Below, in pieces: positions 13 to 20,873 of a DNA stretch of 28,395 nt (positions within the stretch are counted from its first letter, which is position 1; the number at the start of each line of letters is the position of its first letter). Position numbers and translations under genes: made by a program. Source of the DNA: a virus; the IMG/VR virus record IMGVR_UViG_3300009104_000093, positions 1-28,395 of that record. One strand, 5' to 3'. The notes under the pieces are model-generated. The model had not been told where the DNA came from and ran no database searches. It was given only the letters and a program-made list of their open reading frames with translations.

Positions 13-3000
13 ATGGCTTCGGCACTAACAGTATCAGCAAGCCCACCAACTAATCACACTCTCACATTAGGTTCAGCCAGCGCCACCACTACCACTCAAA
101 ACGCATCAAGTGCTCTTAAATGGCTCTATGATACTTACGGGAATCTCGTTGTGGAGTTCCACGACTCTAACGAAAACTTGTTGGGTTCGAGCATCATAAC
201 TAATGTTGCTTGGTCAGGCGTAGGGAACGCTACTGAACAGACCGCTCAAGGTTGGTTAGGAGGTGCTGGCCCTGATGTAAATGCCGCAGACGCATCATCG
301 GGGGATGACTTCGGAGATGTGGATTTAATAAAGGCTGCATTTGGATATAGACACGGTGAGTTATACAAGTTTGAGGATAGCGTAGTAGGTTCTGGAGGAC
401 AACCAGGCCCTGCTAACTACGAGGAACTTTGGGATGGGAGAGTCATACTAAGAGTGAATCACGACACCATTGCTAACATGAAGACTGGCTATTCAATAGA
501 ACTCGGTGGATTCGATAGCGAATTAGATTGCACTGGTATTGATGGTGGTTGGATTCTTGAGAAGGTATCGGCAACAATGAACTCAGGCACTAACAGATTA
601 GGACAAGAATATGCTCTAAGCGGCTTCGATTGGGCTCCATCGTTCATAAACCCTGAAGGTTCATGGGATTACTTCGGTTGCAGTTCATGGAATGGAACAA
701 ACTCTTGGGGATTGGCTTCCAGCACCAAACATAAGGTGTGGAGAGGTATTGGGTTTTTGACCGACTATGGAAATGATTACCAGAATATGTATTTCCTGGT
801 AAAGCCTGGAGAAAGAACTCATTTGACTTGGGCTGAATTAGGGTTTGATACTGCTGAAACCAACACAGCAAACCCAGCGTTTTGTCCTCCAGCACCTAAC
901 ACAGAAACAGACCATTCAGATGTAACTCCCGACATAGCAGGAACATGGTTGAAACACGGTGATGTAGTAGTGACTATGCCCTCTAAGTTTGGGCCTAACA
1001 GAACAATACCTGCTGGAAGTTATCTGAAGGTTAGGAACATATCAAGTGATTTCAAACACTGTTGGGTTCTATGGTCAGATATGAGAAACGATGGAACAGC
1101 AGATGCTGATGGAGGAACACGGAAGAGTGAGTTTGGCTTGCTATTACCTACCACTGAAAACTATTCATTGGATTTATCATTTACAGACCAAATAGTCGAA
1201 GGGTCGAGAGATTCATGGCTAAACATAAAGGCCGGTCAAGACTGCGATATATGGAATGTTAGCGCATTAACTGAACCAGTAACTGGTAGCACTTGGGCGG
1301 CTCAGACTGGTGGTTCTAATAGTGAAGGCAATTCTCTTTATCACAATTGGGAAAATAAAGCAGGGTCTTTCATAGTGATAGACATGAGCAAGTTTTTGAA
1401 CATGAATACAGAAAGTTCTGGAGGACAAATAGGTCTATCCAGTGGGGGCAAGAAGGACATGGGAGACTATATCACCACAAGCGCAGGTAAATCAATGCTA
1501 TGTGATAATTACTGGAAGCAAGCCGCTGCCAATTTCATTATGCCTGGAACAAAGAGCCAGTTTACTATGAATGAAAATTACCAATACTGGAATCAAGCAA
1601 CCACCTTAGTTACTCAAAGTATTAGGATTGGAGATACAGGTATATTTGTCGAAGATGTTAGCGAGTTCCCCTATCAAGGGTTCGGTCCTCTTAAGGCATA
1701 TATGGGTGACGAAATAGAGGAAGAACATTACATATCTTGGTTCGGTAAAGAGACTGGAACAGGACCAAATGGTGAAGATGCTCTATTAAATGTGTATTCT
1801 ATTAGCAAGGAAGATTTGATACAGGCGGCTCAAACCTACACCAATTCTCAAAGCACAAGCGGACTTCCAGTAGCAAGTTGGAGACAATTTAGAGAATACT
1901 ACTTGAGCCTAAAGAGCCTTGATTCCGCAGCCACAGCATCAACAAGTCAGCATTTGAAGATGAACAGCGGATTCTTGATGACTCAAGACCCATTGGCTCA
2001 AGAACAAGCATTCGATTCGGTGCAAATAGGCTCAACACTAAGCGAAAGATACCCTCTTAGATTGATGCTCAACATGGATGGCTTCGCTAAGAGCACTAAT
2101 TCAAATACATATTACCTATCAGACCAAATGAGATTTTTGGCTTCTATGGCTCTCACAGATAATTGGATGCAGACCTACGGCCTTAATTGTTTTTGGGATA
2201 TTGGGTCAGTACCGATGACGAAGAACTTTATTGTCCAACCAGAAAAAGGTATGGCAGACACCACTTCAACACTCGATGACTACGGAGGAGTATCAGATAA
2301 TAGGAACAGCGATGTTCTAAGTCTGGTGAAGAAGATTCAAGAGTTGACTAAGGTTGGAGATACTAATGGGTCTGCTTTGAGATTCAATTACTTAGCAGGT
2401 AAAGATGGTAAGTTGGATATGAGGCCTACATTCAATAGTGGTATTATTCTGAATACTACCAACACAAAACTCTCAAAACACAAATACAGCAACAAAGCAA
2501 ACTTCACTAATGTTCGAGTGTATTATGCTGGTGGTGGCTCGTTTGTTGATTACCCTACCCCAACAACAGGAACACAACCTTACAGATGGAAGGTAATAGA
2601 CATGGGAGATGTTATGTCTTCTGAAGAAGCGAGGAAAATTGCTAAATCTCAATATCAAGCAATGGGAGTATCTAACCACGAAATCAACCTCGAAATAATC
2701 AAGGACAATTCGTATGGAGATGAACCCTTTGAGGGGGATGACCTCATGCTTGAAAGAGGAAGGTATGGCTACATAGCAGATTGTACTCAACAAACCTTCG
2801 GTGATGGAGAAAATTGGTTCGGGCATCATTTAGGCACTACTGCTAAGGCATCAACTTTATTTCCTGGAATGGTTAGTGCTATGGATGGAAACCTCGATGG
2901 CTACAATTCCACAATAGCATCTGGTAATCTCTCTAATGATACTGGAGTTCACGGTAATGGTGTATCAGACCTTTACCCCGTAGGCACTTTTTCAGGCAAT

Positions 3001-4761
3001 GTTAGAGATGCTTGGGATGATTCCACAGTGACTGGAGATACACAAAGGAATGACGACGCATCAGTAGTAGGAACGAAAGTCCCCTGGCATCAGTGGTTTT
3101 ACTGGCATGGAGCAAGAAGTGTATCACAAGCAGTACAAGTGGTGAATATACCTCACAATATGCCTCTTGTTAGTGCTACTACAGGAGAAGAATTGAGAAT
3201 ATCCATCATGTTGAAGCCAGGCCAAACAGGCGGCGCTTCCGCCATAGACACAGCACAATTCTATGTGGTGCTAACAGACTGTGCTAAGGACAGCACCTGG
3301 AAAAACCACTCACCAACAAACACTACAAACGAGAATGGTTATACTAAGGCTCTAATCAATGGTAATGGGTTCGTGCAGATTAAAGTGCCGAGCGCGTATG
3401 TGAATGGAGTATCTGGCTTCGATGCTAACTCTTTAATAACACTATCAGTAAACTACGACTACTTGGTGGATTTGCTACGCTTCAGGACCCACAACGATGA
3501 CGGAGATACCAATAGGCTTAGGAATGCTCACGAAACAGATTGGTTGAACGGCATTACTGATAACGGAACATACAACCCTAATTCAATTTTCCCTCTTGGC
3601 GCAAGAATATACTCACAATTTGGAAACTTAGGAGGGTTTTACACCATGTCCTTTGCTCCGAGATTACACATCGTCAAGGACTTCGCCTTTACACCTGCTT
3701 CCACCGTGAAATATCAAGATGCTAATGCTGGCTACGATTCTCAAACCAGCCTATCCATAAAGAACATTTCATGGAGCATAACCAATAGGAAGACTGAAAA
3801 GGTATCTCTACTCTTAGACCCAGATGAAACAAGATACAGCGAAGACTTCTATGGTTGGCTCGCTCCCAAACTACCTGAAAAGGTGACGATAGAATGGCCT
3901 GAACACGGACAAGACGATAGAGGAGATAGTGGTGGTGAAATCCAACAAGAAGGAGATGGGTCTAAGGATTATCAAGACGAGTCTGATACACAGTATGATT
4001 ACGATAGGGACTCAACAGAAGCAGATGTTTATGATACGGCAACTGCTGGTGGAGAGTCCTTCACGACTTCTTCTGGACCATCTGGCAACAAGAATAGGAT
4101 GCAGATAGATGGCGGGATTAGTGCTGATACTGGAGATATATTCGGTGCGAGCAAGAGGCGGGGCGTTAGGTCAGAATCAGTCACCATTGATGGCCTGTCG
4201 TTCGGAATAAAAACTTCCGGCAGAGCAGTCGATACACCAAACGGGATAGTTTTCCCTGGGGCTGGCAGTAGCGATAAGATGGTTGGGGAACATGAGATGC
4301 TAATCAATTTGCCTGAATCTAATATGTATTCTGGAATCACCATAGAAGCGATAGTCAGCCTACCCGTAAATACTGCTACCAATAGGGCTGTTTTATACGC
4401 GGACTTAGAATCCACCACAACCAATATGACTGCCTCTTCAACATCAACAATTGCTCAACACAAGATTCAAACGGTGCTAAATGAAGGAGCATTACCCTAT
4501 TCAGACGGCACAGATATTAACCCTTCGACCTCCAGAAAACATGGTGGTGCAGTTCTAAGGAAATCAGTAACGCTCTTTTCAAAGGTGAATATGTCTGGGA
4601 CTCAAGAAGCAGGTTCAGCACTTAGATTGAAATTGTATAGGTCGGCAGGAGAAGGAGACGACAATGCTACATACACAGCACTGACTGTGCATTCTATCAA
4701 GGTCAGATACAAGAAGGTCTTGGGAAGAGAATTATCTCAAGCATCTTCCTTCTCAATATGA
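13..4761 (+). CDS. Giant virion protein, probable tail/baseplate hub or fibre (5' end possibly outside window)
   Basis: Not firmly recognised. The frame is open for at least 1582 residues, rich in Ser, Thr, Gly, Asn and aromatic residues, with no predicted membrane span, as in secreted or virion beta-structured proteins. Around residues 820-900 a stretch (VRVYYAGGG, then SSEEARKIAKSQYQ) resembles the layout of phage tail-hub proteins. Residues ~1296-1350 form an acidic Asp/Glu/Gly-rich linker, followed by a C-terminal segment that looks like a beta-sandwich. The first in-frame ATG is at 13, but positions 1-12 contain no in-frame stop, so the true start may lie upstream. It is the only plus-strand gene here and its last 9 nt overlap the end of the convergent nuclease gene. 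Virion role is inferred from size, composition and strand. Confidence 0.7.
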   Translation: MASALTVSASPPTNHTLTLGSASATTTTQNASSALKWLYDTYGNLVVEFHDSNENLLGSSIITNVAWSGVGNATEQTAQGWLGGAGPDVNAADASSGDDFGDVDLIKAAFGYRHGELYKFEDSVVGSGGQPGPANYEELWDGRVILRVNHDTIANMKTGYSIELGGFDSELDCTGIDGGWILEKVSATMNSGTNRLGQEYALSGFDWAPSFINPEGSWDYFGCSSWNGTNSWGLASSTKHKVWRGIGFLTDYGNDYQNMYFLVKPGERTHLTWAELGFDTAETNTANPAFCPPAPNTETDHSDVTPDIAGTWLKHGDVVVTMPSKFGPNRTIPAGSYLKVRNISSDFKHCWVLWSDMRNDGTADADGGTRKSEFGLLLPTTENYSLDLSFTDQIVEGSRDSWLNIKAGQDCDIWNVSALTEPVTGSTWAAQTGGSNSEGNSLYHNWENKAGSFIVIDMSKFLNMNTESSGGQIGLSSGGKKDMGDYITTSAGKSMLCDNYWKQAAANFIMPGTKSQFTMNENYQYWNQATTLVTQSIRIGDTGIFVEDVSEFPYQGFGPLKAYMGDEIEEEHYISWFGKETGTGPNGEDALLNVYSISKEDLIQAAQTYTNSQSTSGLPVASWRQFREYYLSLKSLDSAATASTSQHLKMNSGFLMTQDPLAQEQAFDSVQIGSTLSERYPLRLMLNMDGFAKSTNSNTYYLSDQMRFLASMALTDNWMQTYGLNCFWDIGSVPMTKNFIVQPEKGMADTTSTLDDYGGVSDNRNSDVLSLVKKIQELTKVGDTNGSALRFNYLAGKDGKLDMRPTFNSGIILNTTNTKLSKHKYSNKANFTNVRVYYAGGGSFVDYPTPTTGTQPYRWKVIDMGDVMSSEEARKIAKSQYQAMGVSNHEINLEIIKDNSYGDEPFEGDDLMLERGRYGYIADCTQQTFGDGENWFGHHLGTTAKASTLFPGMVSAMDGNLDGYNSTIASGNLSNDTGVHGNGVSDLYPVGTFSGNVRDAWDDSTVTGDTQRNDDASVVGTKVPWHQWFYWHGARSVSQAVQVVNIPHNMPLVSATTGEELRISIMLKPGQTGGASAIDTAQFYVVLTDCAKDSTWKNHSPTNTTNENGYTKALINGNGFVQIKVPSAYVNGVSGFDANSLITLSVNYDYLVDLLRFRTHNDDGDTNRLRNAHETDWLNGITDNGTYNPNSIFPLGARIYSQFGNLGGFYTMSFAPRLHIVKDFAFTPASTVKYQDANAGYDSQTSLSIKNISWSITNRKTEKVSLLLDPDETRYSEDFYGWLAPKLPEKVTIEWPEHGQDDRGDSGGEIQQEGDGSKDYQDESDTQYDYDRDSTEADVYDTATAGGESFTTSSGPSGNKNRMQIDGGISADTGDIFGASKRRGVRSESVTIDGLSFGIKTSGRAVDTPNGIVFPGAGSSDKMVGEHEMLINLPESNMYSGITIEAIVSLPVNTATNRAVLYADLESTTTNMTASSTSTIAQHKIQTVLNEGALPYSDGTDINPSTSRKHGGAVLRKSVTLFSKVNMSGTQEAGSALRLKLYRSAGEGDDNATYTALTVHSIKVRYKKVLGRELSQASSFSI

Positions 4762-7979: not shown

Positions 7980-10226
7980 TCATAACCAGACCATGCTCCC
8001 AAGACCATTTAGTGCGTTCTGAAGAACAATAGGGTCTTCTCCCATGAGTATGAAGTATGGCTCAACCTTCTTCACAATGAATCTTTCAGCGATATGTCTA
8101 TACCCAAGTTTGGTAAATCGAGGAGACAATCTCAATTCTTGAATATCATCGAATGCTATGTATTTGCCCTCCTCATCCAAAGATACCATGAAAGATGAGC
8201 CAGCACCATACCCTTTACCTAAGTTTCTGTTAGCCCAATCAGCAGCCGCACGAGCCTCGGAAAGCACTTTGTATTGGCTGAGGTCCTTATCAAGTTTGCC
8301 TCGCATACACAGTTCCTCCCACGCATATTCTTTGCTCATAACCTTCTCTATCGTCTTCACTAAATGGTTGCTGATGTATTGGGGGGACAACCCATCTAAG
8401 AGGCCATCCACCACGAACTGCATTGAGTCCTTCATCACTTGAGGCATTCTTGTTTGTTTCATCTCTATACCTTTGATGTAGGTTTGAGGAGGGTGATAGC
8501 CACCATCAGTCCAAGCGACCTTACACGCATACCTGTTCTTAGCCACGATGATTGAGGACTCGCACCACTTCTCGAACTCGGTGATGATAGGGAACATTTC
8601 CTCATTTATGATTCTAAGACTCCTTTCACCATCTTCAGGTGTTTCCATCCTTACGAACACGGAGTCAGTATGCCCATATAGAACCTCATGTCCTAACGCT
8701 TCTGAATGTCGCCTCAATTCACGCAAGGTATTTCTTGAGGTATAGGTGATGGCAGCAGCCACATCGGGGTGGTATAGTCCGTATCGAGAATCACCAGCCG
8801 CACCATACATAGAAGCAACCAGGCTCTTGGTAGCGAATTGTAGTGCGTCATACCTCCTCCGCTCTTCATCGGTTTCGGCCTGTTTCATATTGTGTTTGTA
8901 TTCATTTCTCAATTCAGTCATGTAGTCCATCTGCCGTTGTAGCAGACCTTTCTTTGAGGTATCAAACTTCAGACCGTTTCCTATGTCTTCACCATAGTCT
9001 GAGATATTTTCCCAAGAGATACCATACTTCGCAACATTGCTGTGATACATGGCTCTAATATCGAGTATGCCTATGTTTTCATAGATTCCAGGAACTGGCT
9101 CCATTATATCAGCACCTTCGTAATCCACCTTATCGAATTGAGGTTTAGATGGTATCTTGAATGAGAAATCTCTATCCCTAAGAGCCAAAACAGTAAACAT
9201 CTTAGTGATATATGGAGTGGTTCTCAAATCACATTGGACTAAGTGCTGGATAGCCAAGTAATGCTCTATGCAATTATTGTAGGCATTTAGTCTGGGTAGC
9301 AGCGTCACATCTTTCCTGTTGTAGTCAATGTATGTGCCTATGTCTGAATAGAATGTATTGTGTCCGTCAGGAAGAGCAACCTTCCTATCCCCCAACGCTT
9401 CCCTCGCAGCCGTATCTAACTTCATGTTAGGCAGTTTGCCGTTCTTCATTTGATAGAGTTTAGTCCATGCTTGCATCAGGTCTATTGTGTTTACTCCAGG
9501 AATAGGTTGCGACCAATCATCCTGATATTCATATCGGTGTCTATCCATAGGAGATAGAGTCTTAGCCCCTATATCCCAATGGTCGAGTCGTTCTGCAAGC
9601 ACCCGTATATCAGCACCTGCTACATACCATCCGGCCACAACATCAGGGTCTTGTTTCCTCATGTGCTTAACAAAATGCCTCAACATATCCTTTTCAGACT
9701 TGAAGGCCATTGCCGGAGTTTCAAACTCAACATAGTCAAGACCTTCTGGGTGGTCTTTACAGGGCATCCTTCTAACAGCCCCTTCTTGACTCCATGAGTT
9801 ATTGCATAAAAACCATGTATAGAGTCGCTCGGTATAGGAATCCAATACAGTTATAGCAGTAATCACTCCACTATCCACAGACCACTCCATATCCAAATAC
9901 CAAACTCTATGTTTGTAATCTGGAAAGGTAGTCATCTTGTCTGATAGGACTCTATTGACGAAAGGTATGTTGGCCTCCCATGTCTTCATGCTCTTCTTGA
10001 GTTGGCCCACATCAAAGGGGTCTCGAAAAATACACTTGGTCAGTTCCTCACCATAGATTCCAGTATAACCATCTTGTTTGGCTGAGCATTCAACCAAGTC
10101 AGCATTTTTAGTTTCAACAAAACAGTAGGGCCAAACATCTGAAATTGTATCAACAATGCGCTCAAGTGTTTCTGGATTCCTTCTCCTTATTTGTATAGTC
10201 CGCCCTCTTAATCGTTCAACAATCAT
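7980..10226 (-). CDS. polB: Family B DNA polymerase with 3'-5' exonuclease domain
   Basis: 748 residues; the replicative polymerase. Exonuclease motifs: YLDMEW (D112/E114), WYVAGADIRVL (D206) and YNRKD (Y302-D306). Polymerase motif A is LDIRAMYHS (D389), replacing the usual DxxSLYPS. Motif B is KSLVASMYG (467-475), with Ala where Asn is usual in KxxxNSxYG. Motif C is YGHTDS (517-522); the catalytic Asp521 is kept but the first Asp is His. Later, YIKGIEMKQTRMP matches the thumb-side KxxG region. The length is near that of archaeal PolB. The start has GGGGGG six bases upstream and follows a structured 110-nt intergenic segment. Polymerase and proofreading activity are expected because the metal ligands are intact. 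Confidence 0.95.
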   Translation of the reverse strand: MIVERLRGRTIQIRRRNPETLERIVDTISDVWPYCFVETKNADLVECSAKQDGYTGIYGEELTKCIFRDPFDVGQLKKSMKTWEANIPFVNRVLSDKMTTFPDYKHRVWYLDMEWSVDSGVITAITVLDSYTERLYTWFLCNNSWSQEGAVRRMPCKDHPEGLDYVEFETPAMAFKSEKDMLRHFVKHMRKQDPDVVAGWYVAGADIRVLAERLDHWDIGAKTLSPMDRHRYEYQDDWSQPIPGVNTIDLMQAWTKLYQMKNGKLPNMKLDTAAREALGDRKVALPDGHNTFYSDIGTYIDYNRKDVTLLPRLNAYNNCIEHYLAIQHLVQCDLRTTPYITKMFTVLALRDRDFSFKIPSKPQFDKVDYEGADIMEPVPGIYENIGILDIRAMYHSNVAKYGISWENISDYGEDIGNGLKFDTSKKGLLQRQMDYMTELRNEYKHNMKQAETDEERRRYDALQFATKSLVASMYGAAGDSRYGLYHPDVAAAITYTSRNTLRELRRHSEALGHEVLYGHTDSVFVRMETPEDGERSLRIINEEMFPIITEFEKWCESSIIVAKNRYACKVAWTDGGYHPPQTYIKGIEMKQTRMPQVMKDSMQFVVDGLLDGLSPQYISNHLVKTIEKVMSKEYAWEELCMRGKLDKDLSQYKVLSEARAAADWANRNLGKGYGAGSSFMVSLDEEGKYIAFDDIQELRLSPRFTKLGYRHIAERFIVKKVEPYFILMGEDPIVLQNALNGLGSMVWL

Positions 10227-10336: not shown

Positions 10337-11491
10337 TCAAATCCATTCAACACCCCCAGCATCAACCTTCCAGCCCCAAAACAATTCGGCTACTTCAGGT
10401 GGTGCTGCCTCTCCTACATATTCAAATGAATAACATTCGCGAGTATTCTGTTTCCAACCCCATTCTTCATTTCCAGGATGAGTATGAACCTTGCGGGACA
10501 CGGCTGTCTCCTTCCAGTTAGGATTATTAAATCTGTGTTTAGCAAAAGCGAAATGAGCATGACGGCTAAAGTAGCGACCGCCTCCAGCCAGAACCATTGA
10601 TGCTATGAAATCAGATAGTTGGACTCCAATACCTAATCCCTGATAATCGGGCAAAACCACAGTACGGCTCGCTCTCCAACCATTCTGAATACCACCGTTA
10701 GGGAACGGCAGGGTGCAAGATATAGCAACAGGTCTGTCTTCCCATGTCGCCACAAAGATTCGAGCAGCGGCATTCAAATCTTCAGTCAGATAGTGATGCG
10801 CTTTGAACAGGTCCCACGCCTCATATTCTGCTCGGAATACTTTGAGGTCAATTTGTGGTCTATGAAAAGACCACCCCCTGTTCTCGTTAATTATGGTTTT
10901 TCCCTCTAAAGGATTATAGACCCAATCAGCGTTCAACCATTCGAGTATATCGTCATGGCAGGAGGCTACGATAACCTTTGCTTCTGACTTACGAATAAAC
11001 TTCTGCAATGCAGATGATGCTGCCTTAGCAACATTCCTATCAACAACTGAAGTAAACTCATCTATTAGAATTACTCCACCATTGACTTGACCGTGAGCAA
11101 CTGCCGCCGCAAGGTTGGCTCTAAATTGCTCGCCGTTTGAAAGTGTGTGAAATGGTCTGCACCATGAAGGAACTGAGGAAAGGCCGACCGCCGAAAGAAT
11201 CCCTGCACTTTCTTCTGGGGTCAGACCAATGCCCCCCACAGACGAAATTATAGACTGGCCGCCTCCCCAGTCGTGCGTGTATATATCTCCAAATGTGCGA
11301 AGTAGCGTAGTCTTGCCTGCTCCAGATGGGCCATAGATACAACCTATTGCCCACTCTTCAGGAGGTCTGATATTGTTAATGATTGTGGTTCTCATTCTGT
11401 CTTCAAGGGGAATGTCGAACATCTTCTCAGCAATTGCTGTGTATTCATCGTGTTGAACATCTGTTTCTAATATGATTTGATTACTCGACAT
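10337..11491 (-). CDS. Soluble ABC ATPase fused to a GNAT acetyltransferase-like domain (COG2401-like)
   Basis: 384 residues in two domains. Residues ~20-205 are an ABC ATPase: Walker A GPSGAGKTT (54-62), signature LSNGE (117-121), Walker B VILIDE (140-145) and H-loop His179. No membrane segment or transporter partner is present. Residues ~215-345 look like a GNAT fold, with the acetyl-CoA loop in TVVLPDYQGLGIG (277-289), preceded by HHYLTEDL and ARIFVATW. The ATPase plus acetyltransferase arrangement matches the family described as COG2401. GNAT-fold proteins include phage Mu Mom, which modifies adenine in DNA, so DNA or nucleotide modification is a possible but unproven role. The ATG at 11491 has GGAGG seven bases upstream and overlaps the winged-helix gene by 11 nt. 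Confidence 0.82.
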   Translation of the reverse strand: MSSNQIILETDVQHDEYTAIAEKMFDIPLEDRMRTTIINNIRPPEEWAIGCIYGPSGAGKTTLLRTFGDIYTHDWGGGQSIISSVGGIGLTPEESAGILSAVGLSSVPSWCRPFHTLSNGEQFRANLAAAVAHGQVNGGVILIDEFTSVVDRNVAKAASSALQKFIRKSEAKVIVASCHDDILEWLNADWVYNPLEGKTIINENRGWSFHRPQIDLKVFRAEYEAWDLFKAHHYLTEDLNAAARIFVATWEDRPVAISCTLPFPNGGIQNGWRASRTVVLPDYQGLGIGVQLSDFIASMVLAGGGRYFSRHAHFAFAKHRFNNPNWKETAVSRKVHTHPGNEEWGWKQNTRECYSFEYVGEAAPPEVAELFWGWKVDAGGVEWI

Positions 11492-11717: not shown

Positions 11718-11848
11718 ATAGACCCCTCAATAGGTCGGGGGAGGAGGAACGCACACACCACCAAAGCGTCGGGCCAGTTTAGAAAAAAGGAAAGACTATC
11801 CTCCTTCAATCCCGAAAGGATTGCTGACCAACCCCCGTTGAGTTTCAT
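11714..11848 (-). CDS. Micro-protein with hydrophobic C-terminal half, 44 aa
   Basis: This frame joins the clamp gene to the winged-helix gene. Its ATG overlaps the clamp stop (ATGA) and its TGA overlaps the next ATG (ATGA). GGGAGTG lies six bases before the start. The middle and C-terminal part (LSFFLNWPDALVVCAFLLP) is hydrophobic and could be a membrane segment. A small hairpin, CAATCC and GGATTG (11807-11823), lies inside it. The exact overlap at both ends argues that it is coding. Function unknown. Confidence 0.55.
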   Translation of the reverse strand: MKLNGGWSAILSGLKEDSLSFFLNWPDALVVCAFLLPRPIEGSI

Positions 11849-12693
11849 TCGAGCACTCCCGCTTGGAATACCCATGAGTTACCAGGCAGGACCATTAGCA
11901 TTCTAATGCCTTGTCCTTCTGGTCTGAAATCTATGAAGTTAAGTTTGACTTCACCTGAGAATGGCTTTACTATTGTTTCGAGCCCTCCCTCAAAGTCCCA
12001 CTCCCAATGCTGGTCGTAGCCCGTATTCTTTGTTGAGATACTTTCGTCATCAGCAAAGGAAAGTAATTGCGATATTGTTCTGCCCTTGAGTTCGCCTCCG
12101 ACTTCAACAAAGAGTCCGTCGGCATCAACCCTAAACAGGTATCGGTTAAGTTTCTGTCCGTTTATGGAGTCGCAGCGTAGTGCTTCAAAGAGTTCAACCG
12201 CCTCCACAACGAAGCGACAGAATGGCTGACGAGTTGAACCGTCGGCCATAGTGTATGAACCCTCTTCTATATTGAGCCTACCTGATAGGTCTATGGATTT
12301 CGCTTCCCACTCACCAATTGTTTCTGTTGAATGGGGGAATGCTAACCCACCTAAGTCTCCTGTTAGGCTTGTTCTCTTTGAACCTGAGCGAACACGAATC
12401 TTGTTTCCCTCAGTAAAGATATTGACTTGAGAACCATGAGCGTTTAGAACACCCATAAGTCTGTTTATGTCGGGAACACATATTGCTGCCTCACCGTCTT
12501 CACATGGAAGGGTGAATTGAGCCAAAGATGTTTTCCCATCACGAACGAGCGATGTAGTGGATATGAGCCCATCACCGCTCCTCAAGATACAAGCCGTGAC
12601 CTGCTCTTGATTCTTACCAGCGATAGTTTGCTTCCGCTGGGTGAGTTCGAGTGTCGTTCGTAGTGCGTTATTGTTTGTCGTTATTCCAGTCAT
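11845..12693 (-). CDS. Probable sliding clamp (PCNA-like)
   Basis: 282 residues. Sequence similarity to PCNA is weak by eye, but the pattern is consistent with the fold: SGDGLISTTSLVRDGKTS early, then VPDINRLMGVLNAHGSQV and an inter-domain hydrophilic stretch, and a second domain ending in GQGIRMLMVLPGNSW, like the C-terminal beta-strand of clamps. A clamp is expected because PolB and a clamp-loader small subunit are present. The frame extends to an ATG at 12711, but a TATA-like element ends at 12716, 23 nt from the ATG at 12693; GGTGG also precedes 12693. The shorter start is therefore chosen. Other beta-rich DNA-binding proteins cannot be excluded. Confidence 0.58.
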   Translation of the reverse strand: MTGITTNNNALRTTLELTQRKQTIAGKNQEQVTACILRSGDGLISTTSLVRDGKTSLAQFTLPCEDGEAAICVPDINRLMGVLNAHGSQVNIFTEGNKIRVRSGSKRTSLTGDLGGLAFPHSTETIGEWEAKSIDLSGRLNIEEGSYTMADGSTRQPFCRFVVEAVELFEALRCDSINGQKLNRYLFRVDADGLFVEVGGELKGRTISQLLSFADDESISTKNTGYDQHWEWDFEGGLETIVKPFSGEVKLNFIDFRPEGQGIRMLMVLPGNSWVFQAGVLE

Positions 12694-12715
12694 ATTTATA
12701 CCACCAATCATTGCC

Positions 12716-15465: not shown

Positions 15466-15648
15466 CTATTCTTCCTCCCTGCTTTCGTGGAATGGGTTGG
15501 TTATGAGAGCCGAGCATCTTTTGCATATACAGGCTTCCCAATCGGCATGATGGGCAGAACTTATGTCTTCACAGTTGGGGCAAAGTATCAGGTATTTCGT
15601 TCCGACACCAGCAATGTAATGAAAGTCATCTCTATTTATGCGCTCCAT
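15466..15648 (-). CDS. Zinc-ribbon protein, 60 aa
   Basis: 60 residues with CPNC (23-26) and CICKRC (40-45), a four-Cys zinc ribbon, followed by a polar Glu-rich tail. Its ATG shares a base with the clamp-loader stop (TAATG), so the two are translationally coupled. It is the last gene of the kinase/clamp-loader unit before the SSB promoter. Function unknown; a zinc protein beside the loader could bind DNA or the loader itself. Confidence 0.75.
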   Translation of the reverse strand: MERINRDDFHYIAGVGTKYLILCPNCEDISSAHHADWEACICKRCSALITNPFHESREEE

Positions 15649-16547
15649 TATTGAGTCAACTCCTTGCAGAAATTATAGAGTGCTATCGTGCTGTCGACTC
15701 CATTTATCAAGTCGCGCTCAGTAACAATTGATGCTCTTATCAATTTCATTTTCGATTCATTATTTGCTGGAGATGATATACCAAACTCAAATATGGATTG
15801 GACCGACTTTCTGGGTTTGGATATATTGAGCATAGAGAACGCCAAGTCAATTTGCTTCTCCTTGAAGCACAGATTGAGAAACTTCTTATGGTCTATATCG
15901 CTCACGAATAAAGAGCGGAGAAATTGTTGTGATTGGTCTTCTGGTAATGAAGCATAGGATTGTAGGGCCGATATAGAGTTCCTCAAATCCCCTTCGTGAT
16001 AAGAGGCTATCGTTTTCATTTCCACATCAGTTATTTGAACGCCCTCGCGAGCGGCTATCAAAGCGAGTTGGTTTTCTATGACCTCTTTGGAAATTGGTTT
16101 GAAATGCCTGACTTGACAGCGTGATTGGAGCCAGGGACTCACTTTGGATAGGTCGTTGCAGGTCAGAATGAAGTAGCCCGTAGCATCCTCTATTACACCC
16201 TTAAGAGCGTCTTGTGCTTGAGGTGTTAGTCTATCGGCCTCATCCAGAAGAAAAATAGTTTCCCACAAACCAGAACGCGAAAGGGGAGCAACATCTTCTT
16301 CAACGAAGTCTATTCCTCTTGTTCGCTTAGAAGAGGCGTTAAACCTATGGACTTGATAACCGAGTTCCTTAGCGATAGCGTAGGCGAGGCTTGTCTTACC
16401 AGTTCCTGGCTCAGGAGAATAGAATAGATAGTGCTGCATAGAGTTATTCTTCACAACATTAACAATTTCAGAAGTAATATGCTCCTGCCCCACTACGCCA
16501 TCTATCGTGTCCGGTCTGTATCTCTCAACCCATAATTGTTTAACCAT
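15648..16547 (-). CDS. rfcS: Clamp-loader small subunit (RFC-S-like AAA+ ATPase)
   Basis: 299 residues; loads the ring clamp onto primed DNA. The N-terminus has WVERYRP (6-12), the classic RFC box. Walker A is PEPGTGKTS (45-53, Glu replacing the usual Pro). Walker B is LLDEAD (100-105). Sensor 1 is LTCND (128-132) and the Arg-finger SRC motif is at 142-144. Archaeal RFC small subunits are about 320-330 residues, so the collar domain is slightly short. The start has GGAGAG six bases upstream. No RFC large subunit is seen in the window. Confidence 0.94.
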   Translation of the reverse strand: MVKQLWVERYRPDTIDGVVGQEHITSEIVNVVKNNSMQHYLFYSPEPGTGKTSLAYAIAKELGYQVHRFNASSKRTRGIDFVEEDVAPLSRSGLWETIFLLDEADRLTPQAQDALKGVIEDATGYFILTCNDLSKVSPWLQSRCQVRHFKPISKEVIENQLALIAAREGVQITDVEMKTIASYHEGDLRNSISALQSYASLPEDQSQQFLRSLFVSDIDHKKFLNLCFKEKQIDLAFSMLNISKPRKSVQSIFEFGISSPANNESKMKLIRASIVTERDLINGVDSTIALYNFCKELTQ

Positions 16548-17912: not shown

Positions 17913-18584
17913 CTACAACCACTCAACAATGCTGGTTTGTCGCTTTGCGACTCCCTTTGGCAGTTGGGCGGTATCAACGGCTCTTATCATATTCTGGACT
18001 TCGGGCGCGTGTTTAGAAAGAGTCATCCAATAGATATCTGATATTCGGAATTGGTCGGGGGGAGATGCTTCGGCAACCTTCTTAGTGGGCCAGTCCATTC
18101 TGGTTGATTTAGGCTTTACGCTGAAAGCAAATACAGCATTTGTATATGAGTCAGGTAATGTGAATATGGTTTGTGAGAGAAGTCTTGCCGACTCAATATC
18201 ATTTATGTGGTTTGTTCTGAAGAACGCCATAGTCAATGGGTGAGGCACTTCTGCTATCAAAGGCATGGTTCGCCCCCTATCACTCCAACTGTGCCATGAC
18301 TTCAACTGTCTGGTGAAGCCGACCTTGTTATCTCGCAGGTTGTTATCAATGATTACAAAGTCAGAAGATTTGGCTGTAATCTTAGGCTTCTTGCTGGTCA
18401 CGACTACTAATCTGTGAGAAATGAGTGGCTCCCAAGTAATGCAATCGGCCTCAGTAAACTTGTTAGTGTGGAGAATGTATGTGGTATCAGGTGCTGTGGG
18501 GGGGTAGGTTATCTCATTGTGCATGACTACAAAATCTCCTTGACGAAACTTCTTGTCGTCAGCAGTAAAAATTATGATTCCCAT
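17913..18584 (-). CDS. Unknown protein, 223 aa
   Basis: Not recognised. The sequence alternates beta-strands and helices: VVVTSKK, DFVIIDNNL, then TMPLIAEVPHPLTMAFF, ARLLSQTIFTLPDSYTNAVFAFSV, and a C-terminal helical part. No catalytic motif is visible. Position beside the clamp-loader operon and lack of an RFC large subunit make a loader accessory subunit conceivable, but the sequence does not show it. The ATG at 18584 has GGGGTGA four bases upstream and directly abuts the preceding stop (TAAATG). Confidence 0.8.
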   Translation of the reverse strand: MGIIIFTADDKKFRQGDFVVMHNEITYPPTAPDTTYILHTNKFTEADCITWEPLISHRLVVVTSKKPKITAKSSDFVIIDNNLRDNKVGFTRQLKSWHSWSDRGRTMPLIAEVPHPLTMAFFRTNHINDIESARLLSQTIFTLPDSYTNAVFAFSVKPKSTRMDWPTKKVAEASPPDQFRISDIYWMTLSKHAPEVQNMIRAVDTAQLPKGVAKRQTSIVEWL

Positions 18585-18758
18585 TTAATCACCCCAGAAT
18601 TTTCTCAAAAAAATGCTCATGGTGGAGGTGTGTGGGCTTGGGCGTTGCAATCTAATCTCTCTCCGACCCTTCGCTGGAAGACTACCGTGTGCCTCGTTTA
18701 TCAGTCGTGATGACCTTACTCCTTGCCGTAGTTTTGCCTCCCAGTTCGTTATTCCCAC
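18585..18758 (-). CDS. Basic micro-protein, 57 aa
   Basis: An open frame fills the gap between the chaperonin and the 223-residue gene. It starts with GTG at 18758, preceded by a perfect GGAGG four bases upstream. About a quarter of the residues are Arg or Lys (for example GRREIRLQR), and it ends IFLRKFWGD. Its TAA is immediately followed by the next ATG. No known family; a DNA- or RNA-binding role would fit the charge. Confidence 0.58.
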   Translation of the reverse strand: MGITNWEAKLRQGVRSSRLINEAHGSLPAKGRREIRLQRPSPHTSTMSIFLRKFWGD

Positions 18759-18767
18759 ACTACCTCC

Positions 18768-20231
18768 TTATGTTTCGATAATCAATGTATCTGTTGTTAG
18801 AACCAAACTTGATACTGATGTTGCGGCTCTTAGAGAATTAGCAACGACAGATGCTGGGTCAATAATAATTGAACTGCAAGCATCTATCCAATCTGCTACT
18901 GATATGCCAGCATTATTCGCCAATGTTTCTGCAACTGCCATAAGCCCCTTCATCATAATACCTGAACGGCATAGTGGGAGCATACTGTGGTGTATCACAC
19001 CACCACCTCTTACCACGCCACTTTGAAGAGCGGCTCTTGTAGCATTGATAGAGTCGTCAATTCGCATCTTAGTCTCCATTCCTTCTGCTTCTGTGTTAGC
19101 ACTTATGCTGATGGTCGCTACTCGGCCTTGAAGGTTGGCTATCCTATCAGCCATGACTCGCTTATCCCAATCATGTTCTGATTCCTCCATTGCTTTCCTC
19201 ATTATTGCTTCTCTCTCATTAACATCTTCGTCAGTTTGTTCGTTAAGTGGAATGAGTACTGAAGAGTTATCCCTAACGATAACACTTGCCTCGCCGGACC
19301 AATCTTCCTCAAAGTCCTTCAACCTTTCGCCCAATCCAGACATGATGTGTTTAGCACCAGCCCTACAAGCAATATCTCCTGCTATGTCTTCCTTTTGCTT
19401 GCCCTGACCTGGCAGAACGAGAACCGTAGCATCAACCTTACCCTGAACAACATTCAGCGCGAGCGTATCTAATGCTATCTTGCTGATATTACCACATATC
19501 AAAACCAATGGTAATTTCTCTTCGACTGAATATGTTAGTGCGGGAACGAGTTCTGGGAAGTCATTGATGACCTCATCAGTCACCACCACTATTGCATCTG
19601 TGTATTCGACCTCTTGTTGGTTCTTCATCAAATGTTGTGATGCTGGACCAGAAGAAATCTTCATCCCTTGAATGAAATCGAGTTGGGGGGAATCTGTTAG
19701 GCCGTCAATCATTACTATTGTTCCTGTATCTCCGACAACATTGAAAGCATCCGAGATAACCTTGCCTAACTCCTCATCATTGTTGGCTGAAATGGTAGCC
19801 ACACTCAATAGGCTATCCTCATCAACATCAACAGCCACTTCTCCTATGTGGTGCAATAGTGATAAGAGGTCATCATCTAATTCGCGTTTGAGTTTCTTTG
19901 CACTATTGCCTTCGTTGAGCAGTTGGAATGCGTGAAGACACATTGCTTCAGCCATTATGGTTGCTGTCGTAGTCCCATCACCAGATGCCTTTTGTGCTTC
20001 TTCAGCAACTTCGCGCATTAGCGACGCACCGAGTTCCTCGAATGGGTCTTCGGGTTTGATTTGTCTAACGACAGAAACTCCATCATTAACTACGAATGGT
20101 CTGCCGCTCGGGGCTTTGTATAGGACTGTGTAAGCATCAGGTCCAAGCGTTCCACGAACAGAATCAGCCACCGCTGATATGCCTTTCACCATTGCGGACC
20201 TCGCTTCATTACCCTTTAGTATTTTACTCAT
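18768..20231 (-). CDS. groEL: Group I chaperonin (GroEL-like)
   Basis: 487 residues; ATP-driven protein-folding ring. The sequence follows GroEL rather than the archaeal thermosome: NDGVSVVRQI (equivalent to GroEL Asp52), SGDGTTTAT (Asp87), GMKISSGP at the apical boundary, and RIDDSINATRAALQSGVVRGGG (Asp398). The ATPase aspartates are kept. The C-terminal equatorial part (LDP-like IIIDPASVVANSLRAATSVSSLVLTT) also aligns with GroEL. It is about 60 residues shorter than GroEL and lacks the GGM tail. The ATG at 20231 has GGTGGG six bases upstream and is preferred over the ATG at 20237. It overlaps the end of a candidate co-chaperonin gene. Confidence 0.93.
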   Translation of the reverse strand: MSKILKGNEARSAMVKGISAVADSVRGTLGPDAYTVLYKAPSGRPFVVNDGVSVVRQIKPEDPFEELGASLMREVAEEAQKASGDGTTTATIMAEAMCLHAFQLLNEGNSAKKLKRELDDDLLSLLHHIGEVAVDVDEDSLLSVATISANNDEELGKVISDAFNVVGDTGTIVMIDGLTDSPQLDFIQGMKISSGPASQHLMKNQQEVEYTDAIVVVTDEVINDFPELVPALTYSVEEKLPLVLICGNISKIALDTLALNVVQGKVDATVLVLPGQGKQKEDIAGDIACRAGAKHIMSGLGERLKDFEEDWSGEASVIVRDNSSVLIPLNEQTDEDVNEREAIMRKAMEESEHDWDKRVMADRIANLQGRVATISISANTEAEGMETKMRIDDSINATRAALQSGVVRGGGVIHHSMLPLCRSGIMMKGLMAVAETLANNAGISVADWIDACSSIIIDPASVVANSLRAATSVSSLVLTTDTLIIET

Positions 20232-20454
20232 CTTCATCCCACCCCATTACTTGCATTCTGCCTATCAGCCAGATGTTAGGTGCTACTTCTATATCAGTTT
20301 CGCTCGAACAGAAATAAATGTGTTTGTCTGTGAAGGTGTCGAGTGGGTCATCAATGACTTTCGCTCTGTATTCGCTGATGTTGGATATTAACCCATGCGA
20401 GTGGCTCGTGTTTCCAATCTCAATCAATAAGTTTCCTACTGTTGCCTTAATCAT
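20224..20454 (-). CDS. Candidate divergent GroES-like co-chaperonin, 76 aa
   Basis: 76 residues, directly before and overlapping groEL, which is the usual groES position. The order of hydrophobic strands resembles GroES and T4 gp31: IKATVGNLLIEI, a short loop ending HGLI (compare the GGI/SGLI mobile-loop tripeptide), YRAKVID, DKHIYFCSSE, then EVAPNIWLIGRMQV. It is shorter than GroES (about 97). This is by-eye reasoning and needs structure prediction. A weak TATA-like CATAATA lies 23 nt upstream of the ATG, and AGG is seven bases before it. Confidence 0.45.
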   Translation of the reverse strand: MIKATVGNLLIEIGNTSHSHGLISNISEYRAKVIDDPLDTFTDKHIYFCSSETDIEVAPNIWLIGRMQVMGWDEDE

Positions 20455-20635
20455 TCAAAACCTTCCCTAAATCTCGTATTATGAAGTTCTCCATCCAGAA
20501 CCAAAATGTTGAAGCCACATCATCTCCGTCTTTGTGTTCCAGAAAGAAGTTTTCGTTCTCATCTAATGCTTCTCTAACGAAGCGCTCGAACAGTTCTTGA
20601 AGACACTCAAATCCTTCTTCAGGAGTTGATACCAT
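20447..20635 (-). CDS. Small acidic helical protein, 62 aa
   Basis: Unknown. It is mostly helical, acidic and aromatic (LQELFERFVREALDENENFFLEH, FWFWMENFIIRDL). A longer frame begins at 20686, but that would overlap the preceding gene by 68 nt; the ATG at 20635 follows GGGGTGG by six bases and overlaps by only 17 nt. It overlaps the candidate co-chaperonin start by 8 nt, so the three genes through groEL form one unit. Confidence 0.65.
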   Translation of the reverse strand: MVSTPEEGFECLQELFERFVREALDENENFFLEHKDGDDVASTFWFWMENFIIRDLGKVLND

Positions 20636-20873
20636 CGAAGCCACCCCAGGGATTCTCAGCCAAAACATACGCTCTAAATCGTGCATATTGTGATTGAGTT
20701 AATCCATATACCTCCATTAGTGCTGTATTAGTTATTCGGAATCTTCCTACATACCAATGCAGACCATCGGGCTTTAGAGCGCACCATACGCCTTCGCCCT
20801 TCATGTCCGCAACTAATACTGGGTATTGTCTTCGGGTTATATATGTTGCTATGAGTCGCCTTTTCCTTTTCAT
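20619..20873 (-). CDS. Unknown small basic protein, 84 aa
   Basis: Begins MKRKRRLIATYITRRQYP, strongly basic, then a compact mixed domain (GVWCALKPDGLHWYVGRFRITN) and a helical end. No family recognised. The ATG overlaps the previous stop as ATGA and has GAGGAGA four bases upstream. A weak AATTATA lies 24 nt before the start, similar in position to the other promoter elements. Confidence 0.68.
   Translation of the reverse strand: MKRKRRLIATYITRRQYPVLVADMKGEGVWCALKPDGLHWYVGRFRITNTALMEVYGLTQSQYARFRAYVLAENPWGGFDGINS

Follow-up and report, generated by a model that had tools for sequence, protein, structure and literature searches.

A viral group I chaperonin and a strongly reduced, candidate GroES lid encoded side by side in an archaeal-type virus

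The DNA analysed here, referred to as the window, is the whole 28,395-nucleotide viral record IMGVR_UViG_3300009104_000093 from IMG/VR. Two neighbouring open reading frames (ORFs) on its minus strand are the subject of this work: groEL (18768–20237), which encodes a 489 amino acid group I chaperonin, and a groES-like gene (20224–20454), which lies just upstream and encodes a 76 amino acid protein that is most likely its GroES. The end of the smaller ORF overlaps the groEL start by 14 nt and the two are probably co-translated; a preliminary description of this DNA had placed both ORFs exactly. The groES start in turn overlaps the end of p79 (20447–20686, minus strand), an unknown backbone gene that is 65–68% identical in the related contigs L177, L178 and L180. 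Downstream lies p223 (17913–18584, minus strand), an unknown backbone gene conserved across relatives. In two relatives without the chaperonin genes at this site the p79 and p223 matches are separated by about 2 nt (437/440, L178) and by 13 nt (L180), and these gap sizes give the groES–groEL cassette an apparent extent of 18585–20446 on the minus strand. We also considered p79 as a cassette member, but this was rejected as the gene is present in relatives that have no groES–groEL adjoining it.

The pair is embedded in a replication module that is colinear with a few dozen IMG/VR contigs, although not all genes are found in each. The order of the module is AAA, p210, p84, p79, p223, p142, dNMP kinase, replication factor C (RFC) and p388, followed by RecA-like, PCNA-like, ABC-GNAT, family B DNA polymerase (PolB), Cas4-like, p55, primase and ERCC4. 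PolB (7980–10226, minus strand) is a single 748 amino acid ORF (Pfam PF00136, 1.6e-28) and marks an archaeal-virus lineage, the best annotated relatives by coverage in the phage collection being haloarchaeal tailed viruses. The RFC small-subunit-like clamp loader (15648–16547, minus strand) was assigned by Pfam, and the PCNA-like gene (11845–12711, minus strand), which has no Pfam match, by its position and the ICTV gene list. The host is probably an archaeon and probably marine, as judged from the archaeal-type replisome and the relatives rather than from a direct host link. On the plus strand, convergent with the module, a 1582 amino acid ORF (13–4761) resembles part of a 2533 amino acid protein of L036 and is likely to be a virion or tail protein. 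A capsid gene was not recognised anywhere in the window.

The 489 amino acid protein matches Pfam Cpn60_TCP1 (E=2.4e-33) and the PHROG GroEL family (1e-87), and its best PDB sequence matches are all GroEL, at about 244 bits. It scores 320 bits against the NCBIfam GroEL model TIGR02348, short of the curated cut-off for equivalogs (582), and the best of the thermosome models (thermosome_alpha) gives 48 bits. The three ATPase aspartates and the INATRAA-like group I segment attributed to the chaperonin earlier are all present (D52, D87 and D398; RIDDSINATRAA), D495 is kept, and the TLGP and GDGTTT motifs are intact. The GroES-contact positions 234, 237, 259, 263 and 264 are still hydrophobic (V, L, L, A and L). 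The AlphaFold2 (AF2) model (pLDDT 82) has a three-domain fold like that of GroEL subunits and is closest to GroES-bound rings, namely 4v4o (TM 0.94), which is Thermus Cpn60 in its Cpn10-bound state, and 5opx (TM 0.92). The protein is predicted to assemble into rings and to possess ATPase activity. An Asn at position 51 was considered as a link between these GroELs and the thermosomes and was rejected, as the PIVINDGV motif also finds bacterial GroELs; in a genome scan with this motif the best 80 matches listed were all bacterial.

The protein is shorter than usual (489 versus about 548 amino acids) through losses in the equatorial domain, which affect a loop near 420–435, the 477–481 hairpin and the Gly-Met tail. 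In the residue alignment the nucleotide-contacting G-Y/F-N-A hairpin (477–481) was not found in the window GroEL; it is also absent in L193 and in the crAss-like phage cr111, is reduced in L177 and is kept in most others. An assembly error was considered for this loss and rejected on the basis of the related losses. The hairpin is common in group I but does not define it, and its absence is a difference rather than an exclusion, which could weaken nucleotide binding. One hypothesis is that the pair is decaying or repurposed, with a GroEL that has lost its nucleotide contacts and works as a holdase independently of ATP, or in some other capacity. Besides the shortening and the lost hairpin and tail, the rate of change would fit this: between the window (18768–20454) and its close relative L177 (3776–5550) GroES is 30% and GroEL 51% identical, far faster divergence than that of the backbone genes (RecA-like 85–86%, ABC-GNAT 88%). 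Yet D52, D87, D398 and D495 are intact in each archaeal-virus GroEL copy examined, the reading frame and both motifs are intact in the window, and a hairpin that is lost or reduced in other viruses as well is not a one-off error. We regard decay or repurposing as unlikely.

The upstream protein was described as having little sequence identity to GroES, and this holds to the point that no profile library recognises it: by itself it has no match in Pfam (including PF00166), PHROGs, the PDB, phage records or IMG/VR. Against a leave-one-out profile of the viral GroES family it scores 8.0 bits, which is the top score among the 305 ORFs of the window and is matched by only 1 in 2000 shuffles, so that the signal exceeds what chance would give. 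Alignment to the family in hhalign is weak (P=0.004, with 2 of 300 shuffles equally good); when the L177 homolog is added it runs over the full length in register and is still weak (P=0.003). The family profile itself matches solved GroES structures at 1e-8, and 5 of its 17 members match Pfam Cpn10. The L177 homolog (30% identity, 43.5 bits) has no score against the GroES profile.

The AF2 model of the 76 amino acid protein, which was computed for the protein alone from 17 alignment rows (pLDDT 83, pTM 0.72), is a GroES β-barrel of six strands, with the strand order and the GLI loop that had been proposed from the sequence. The mobile loop spans about residues 14–27 (GNTSHSHGLISNIS), and residues 17–24 within it are at low confidence, that is, disordered. 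Its core keeps a glycine followed by two hydrophobic residues, as HGLI in the window and SGII, SGLM or HGII in relatives. The roof hairpin was found neither in this protein nor in most of the viral GroES family, as compared with E. coli GroES (97 amino acids). In a Foldseek search of the PDB the top 28 matches were all GroES/Cpn10 (TMq about 0.54–0.74), with E-values of 0.009–0.1 for the best, which are not strong; the top named viral structural matches are viral GroES models. The AF2 alignment held recognisable GroES rows, so the family assignment is to some degree built into the model, and it is because of this dependence that we call the protein very probably a GroES and go no higher. The L177 counterpart (3776–4078) is longer than the window protein by about 15 residues close to the mobile loop.

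Gene order in relatives bears on the same question. Relatives were collected through the chaperonin (first set) and through a backbone gene (second set); a search with the window GroEL as a single sequence missed all of them and a two-sequence alignment found them. Each of the 30 testable contigs from related viruses has a GroES-like ORF just before its groEL; several of these contigs are near-duplicates, so that the independent cases are fewer. In the first set it is directly upstream in 18 of 19, and in L046 it is two small genes away. All 11 testable groELs of the second set have it, in one case separated by a small ORF. Eight of these GroES-like proteins match the GroES-family profile at E < 5e-4 and those of L194 and L193 do so weakly; the L177 protein can be recognised only by its 30% identity to that of the window. 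Neither of the refuting outcomes named in the preliminary description, a fold of the small protein unlike the GroES barrel or the lack of its gene next to groEL in relatives, was observed. An alternative explanation is that the GroEL works while the 76 amino acid protein is an unrelated small β-rich protein, the GroEL borrowing a host GroES or acting lidless. The direct sequence evidence for a GroES is weak, marine group II (MGII) hosts are reported to have group I chaperonins (PMC5332604) and may offer a lid, and no groES is annotated beside several phage GroELs. However, the protein agrees with the recognisable GroES of relatives in its position, size and predicted fold, and the gene still adjoins groEL in L177, and we consider this alternative improbable. 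The small ORFs between groES and groEL in L046 (2504–3113) include one with CxxC motifs, and a small CxxC ORF lies between the two genes in L194 as well.

The GroES–GroEL pair does not keep one place in the module. In the window and L177 both genes sit between p79 and p223, in G002 and L197 between RecA-like and PCNA-like, in G045 between p55 and primase, and in L186–L194 between p388 and RecA-like; L036 has an empty p55/primase slot with a gap of about 2 nt. The backbone tree joins the window with L177, then with L178 and G045, and then with G002, whereas the tree of the chaperonins has G002 beside the window and L177 and leaves G045 outside. The four slots together with this mismatch indicate that the two-gene unit was moved or acquired repeatedly, with both genes together each time, and such paired movement supports the joint working of groES and groEL. 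No chaperonin is found in the sequence of 29 of the 30 PolB-related contigs of the first search (some of them short fragments), and the pair is therefore an optional gene set, which stays together while relocating within colinear viral genomes.

Trees of GroEL place 20 archaeal-virus GroELs on one side of a branch with support 100, and when the tree is widened to include distant phages, 14 of the 15 tested group together at 99. These trees come from quick searches and have long branches, so that neighbours outside the archaeal-virus group are unsure; within that limit the archaeal-virus GroELs, by their sequences, form one group apart from bacterial GroELs. L051 was considered as a member and rejected, as it falls outside the group and is not clearly an archaeal virus. 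In the literature, a survey of 58 putative MGII virus genomes reported chaperonins in 38, and these were of GroEL type in 20 (Nishimura 2017, PMC5332604), and the ICTV profile of Aoguangviridae lists GroEL and GroES (PMC10768690). A GroES–GroEL pair in an archaeal virus, presented earlier as a novelty, is thus already known, and what is unusual here is how far the lid is reduced. The contrast with a GroEL-less host that was implied at the same time is not supported either, since both chaperonin groups are reported in MGII genomes (PMC5332604); the idea that the machine of such a virus must be foreign to its host is thereby corrected.

Aoguangviridae, or magroviruses, share with the window the archaeal-type replisome, a GroES upstream of a group I GroEL, and GroELs in one phylogenetic group. 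Contigs G035–G037, G041–G043, G047 and G048 carry the pair, most with PolB split in two ORFs, and these split-PolB contigs fit the Aoguangviridae description. In contrast to the split N- and C-terminal ORFs of that family, the window PolB is unsplit and about 30–34% identical; its GroES is more divergent, so that no library finds it, and its GroEL is without the 477–481 hairpin. The window represents a related but separate, neighbouring lineage.

Among other known systems, T4 gp31 resembles the window lid in its very low identity to GroES and in having no roof loops (PMC6318259), and the roof hairpin is not needed for gp31 co-chaperonin function. Unlike this virus, which brings its own GroEL, T4 uses that of the host, and the gp31 mobile loop is longer (22 residues) whereas the loop of the window lid is ordinary or slightly short. 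Phage EL gp146 is also a virus-encoded GroEL-like chaperonin (PMC7185714), but it is very distant (27.7% over 84%) and no groES is annotated beside it. The GroELs of Vibrio phages K469 and 207E48.1 are among the best annotated phage matches (34–36% identity), yet these phages have a bacterial host and no annotated GroES adjoining, and their GroELs have a full-length equatorial domain including the hairpin.

Taken together, the data support the view that this archaeal-type virus encodes a group I GroEL along with a divergent GroES to match. The reading that we find highly probable is a virus-owned group I chaperonin in which GroEL rings work with a reduced, roofless GroES lid, both moving as one cassette. 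In such a machine the lid would pair physically with GroEL and cap its rings through the G-L-I mobile loop, and ATP cycling would drive the encapsulation and folding of proteins that infection produces in large amounts. By analogy with T4 gp31 and gp23, the main clients would be virion proteins, with the capsid protein the likeliest. Another possibility is that the GroEL–GroES cage works on replication proteins or for a stressed host and not on the capsid. The cassette does lie within the replication module, and it is dispensable, as the PolB-related contigs without a chaperonin (again including short fragments) must still build capsids; on the other hand T4 gp31, which among viral co-chaperonins has been studied best, has the major capsid protein gp23 as its client (PMC6318259). 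We see this as possible but doubtful.

A more tentative proposal, which we would not yet favour, is that the virus-owned chaperonin is a distinct variant, with a minimal roofless lid and a hairpin-less ATP pocket in a fast-diverging, hopping two-gene cassette that is tuned to one viral client; if true, the lid, the cavity and the nucleotide handling would all be tuned to that client. The viral pair offers a small natural system of two proteins in which to ask what parts of GroES and GroEL are needed, and it suggests that highly reduced GroES lids, invisible to annotation, go with viral GroELs in archaeal viruses.

Two further observations concern the module itself. The ABC-GNAT gene of the window (10337–11491, minus strand) encodes a fusion of two domains, an ABC-type ATPase and a GNAT acetyltransferase, and matches phrog_11143 (4e-106), a family of unknown function; it is 80–88% identical in L159 and L177, where no other gene of the module is as well conserved, and was not detected in many other relatives. 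In G002 a cytosine-methyltransferase-like ORF (named by eye; L035 7812–8777) lies between PCNA-like and ABC-GNAT and is another insertion into the same colinear module.
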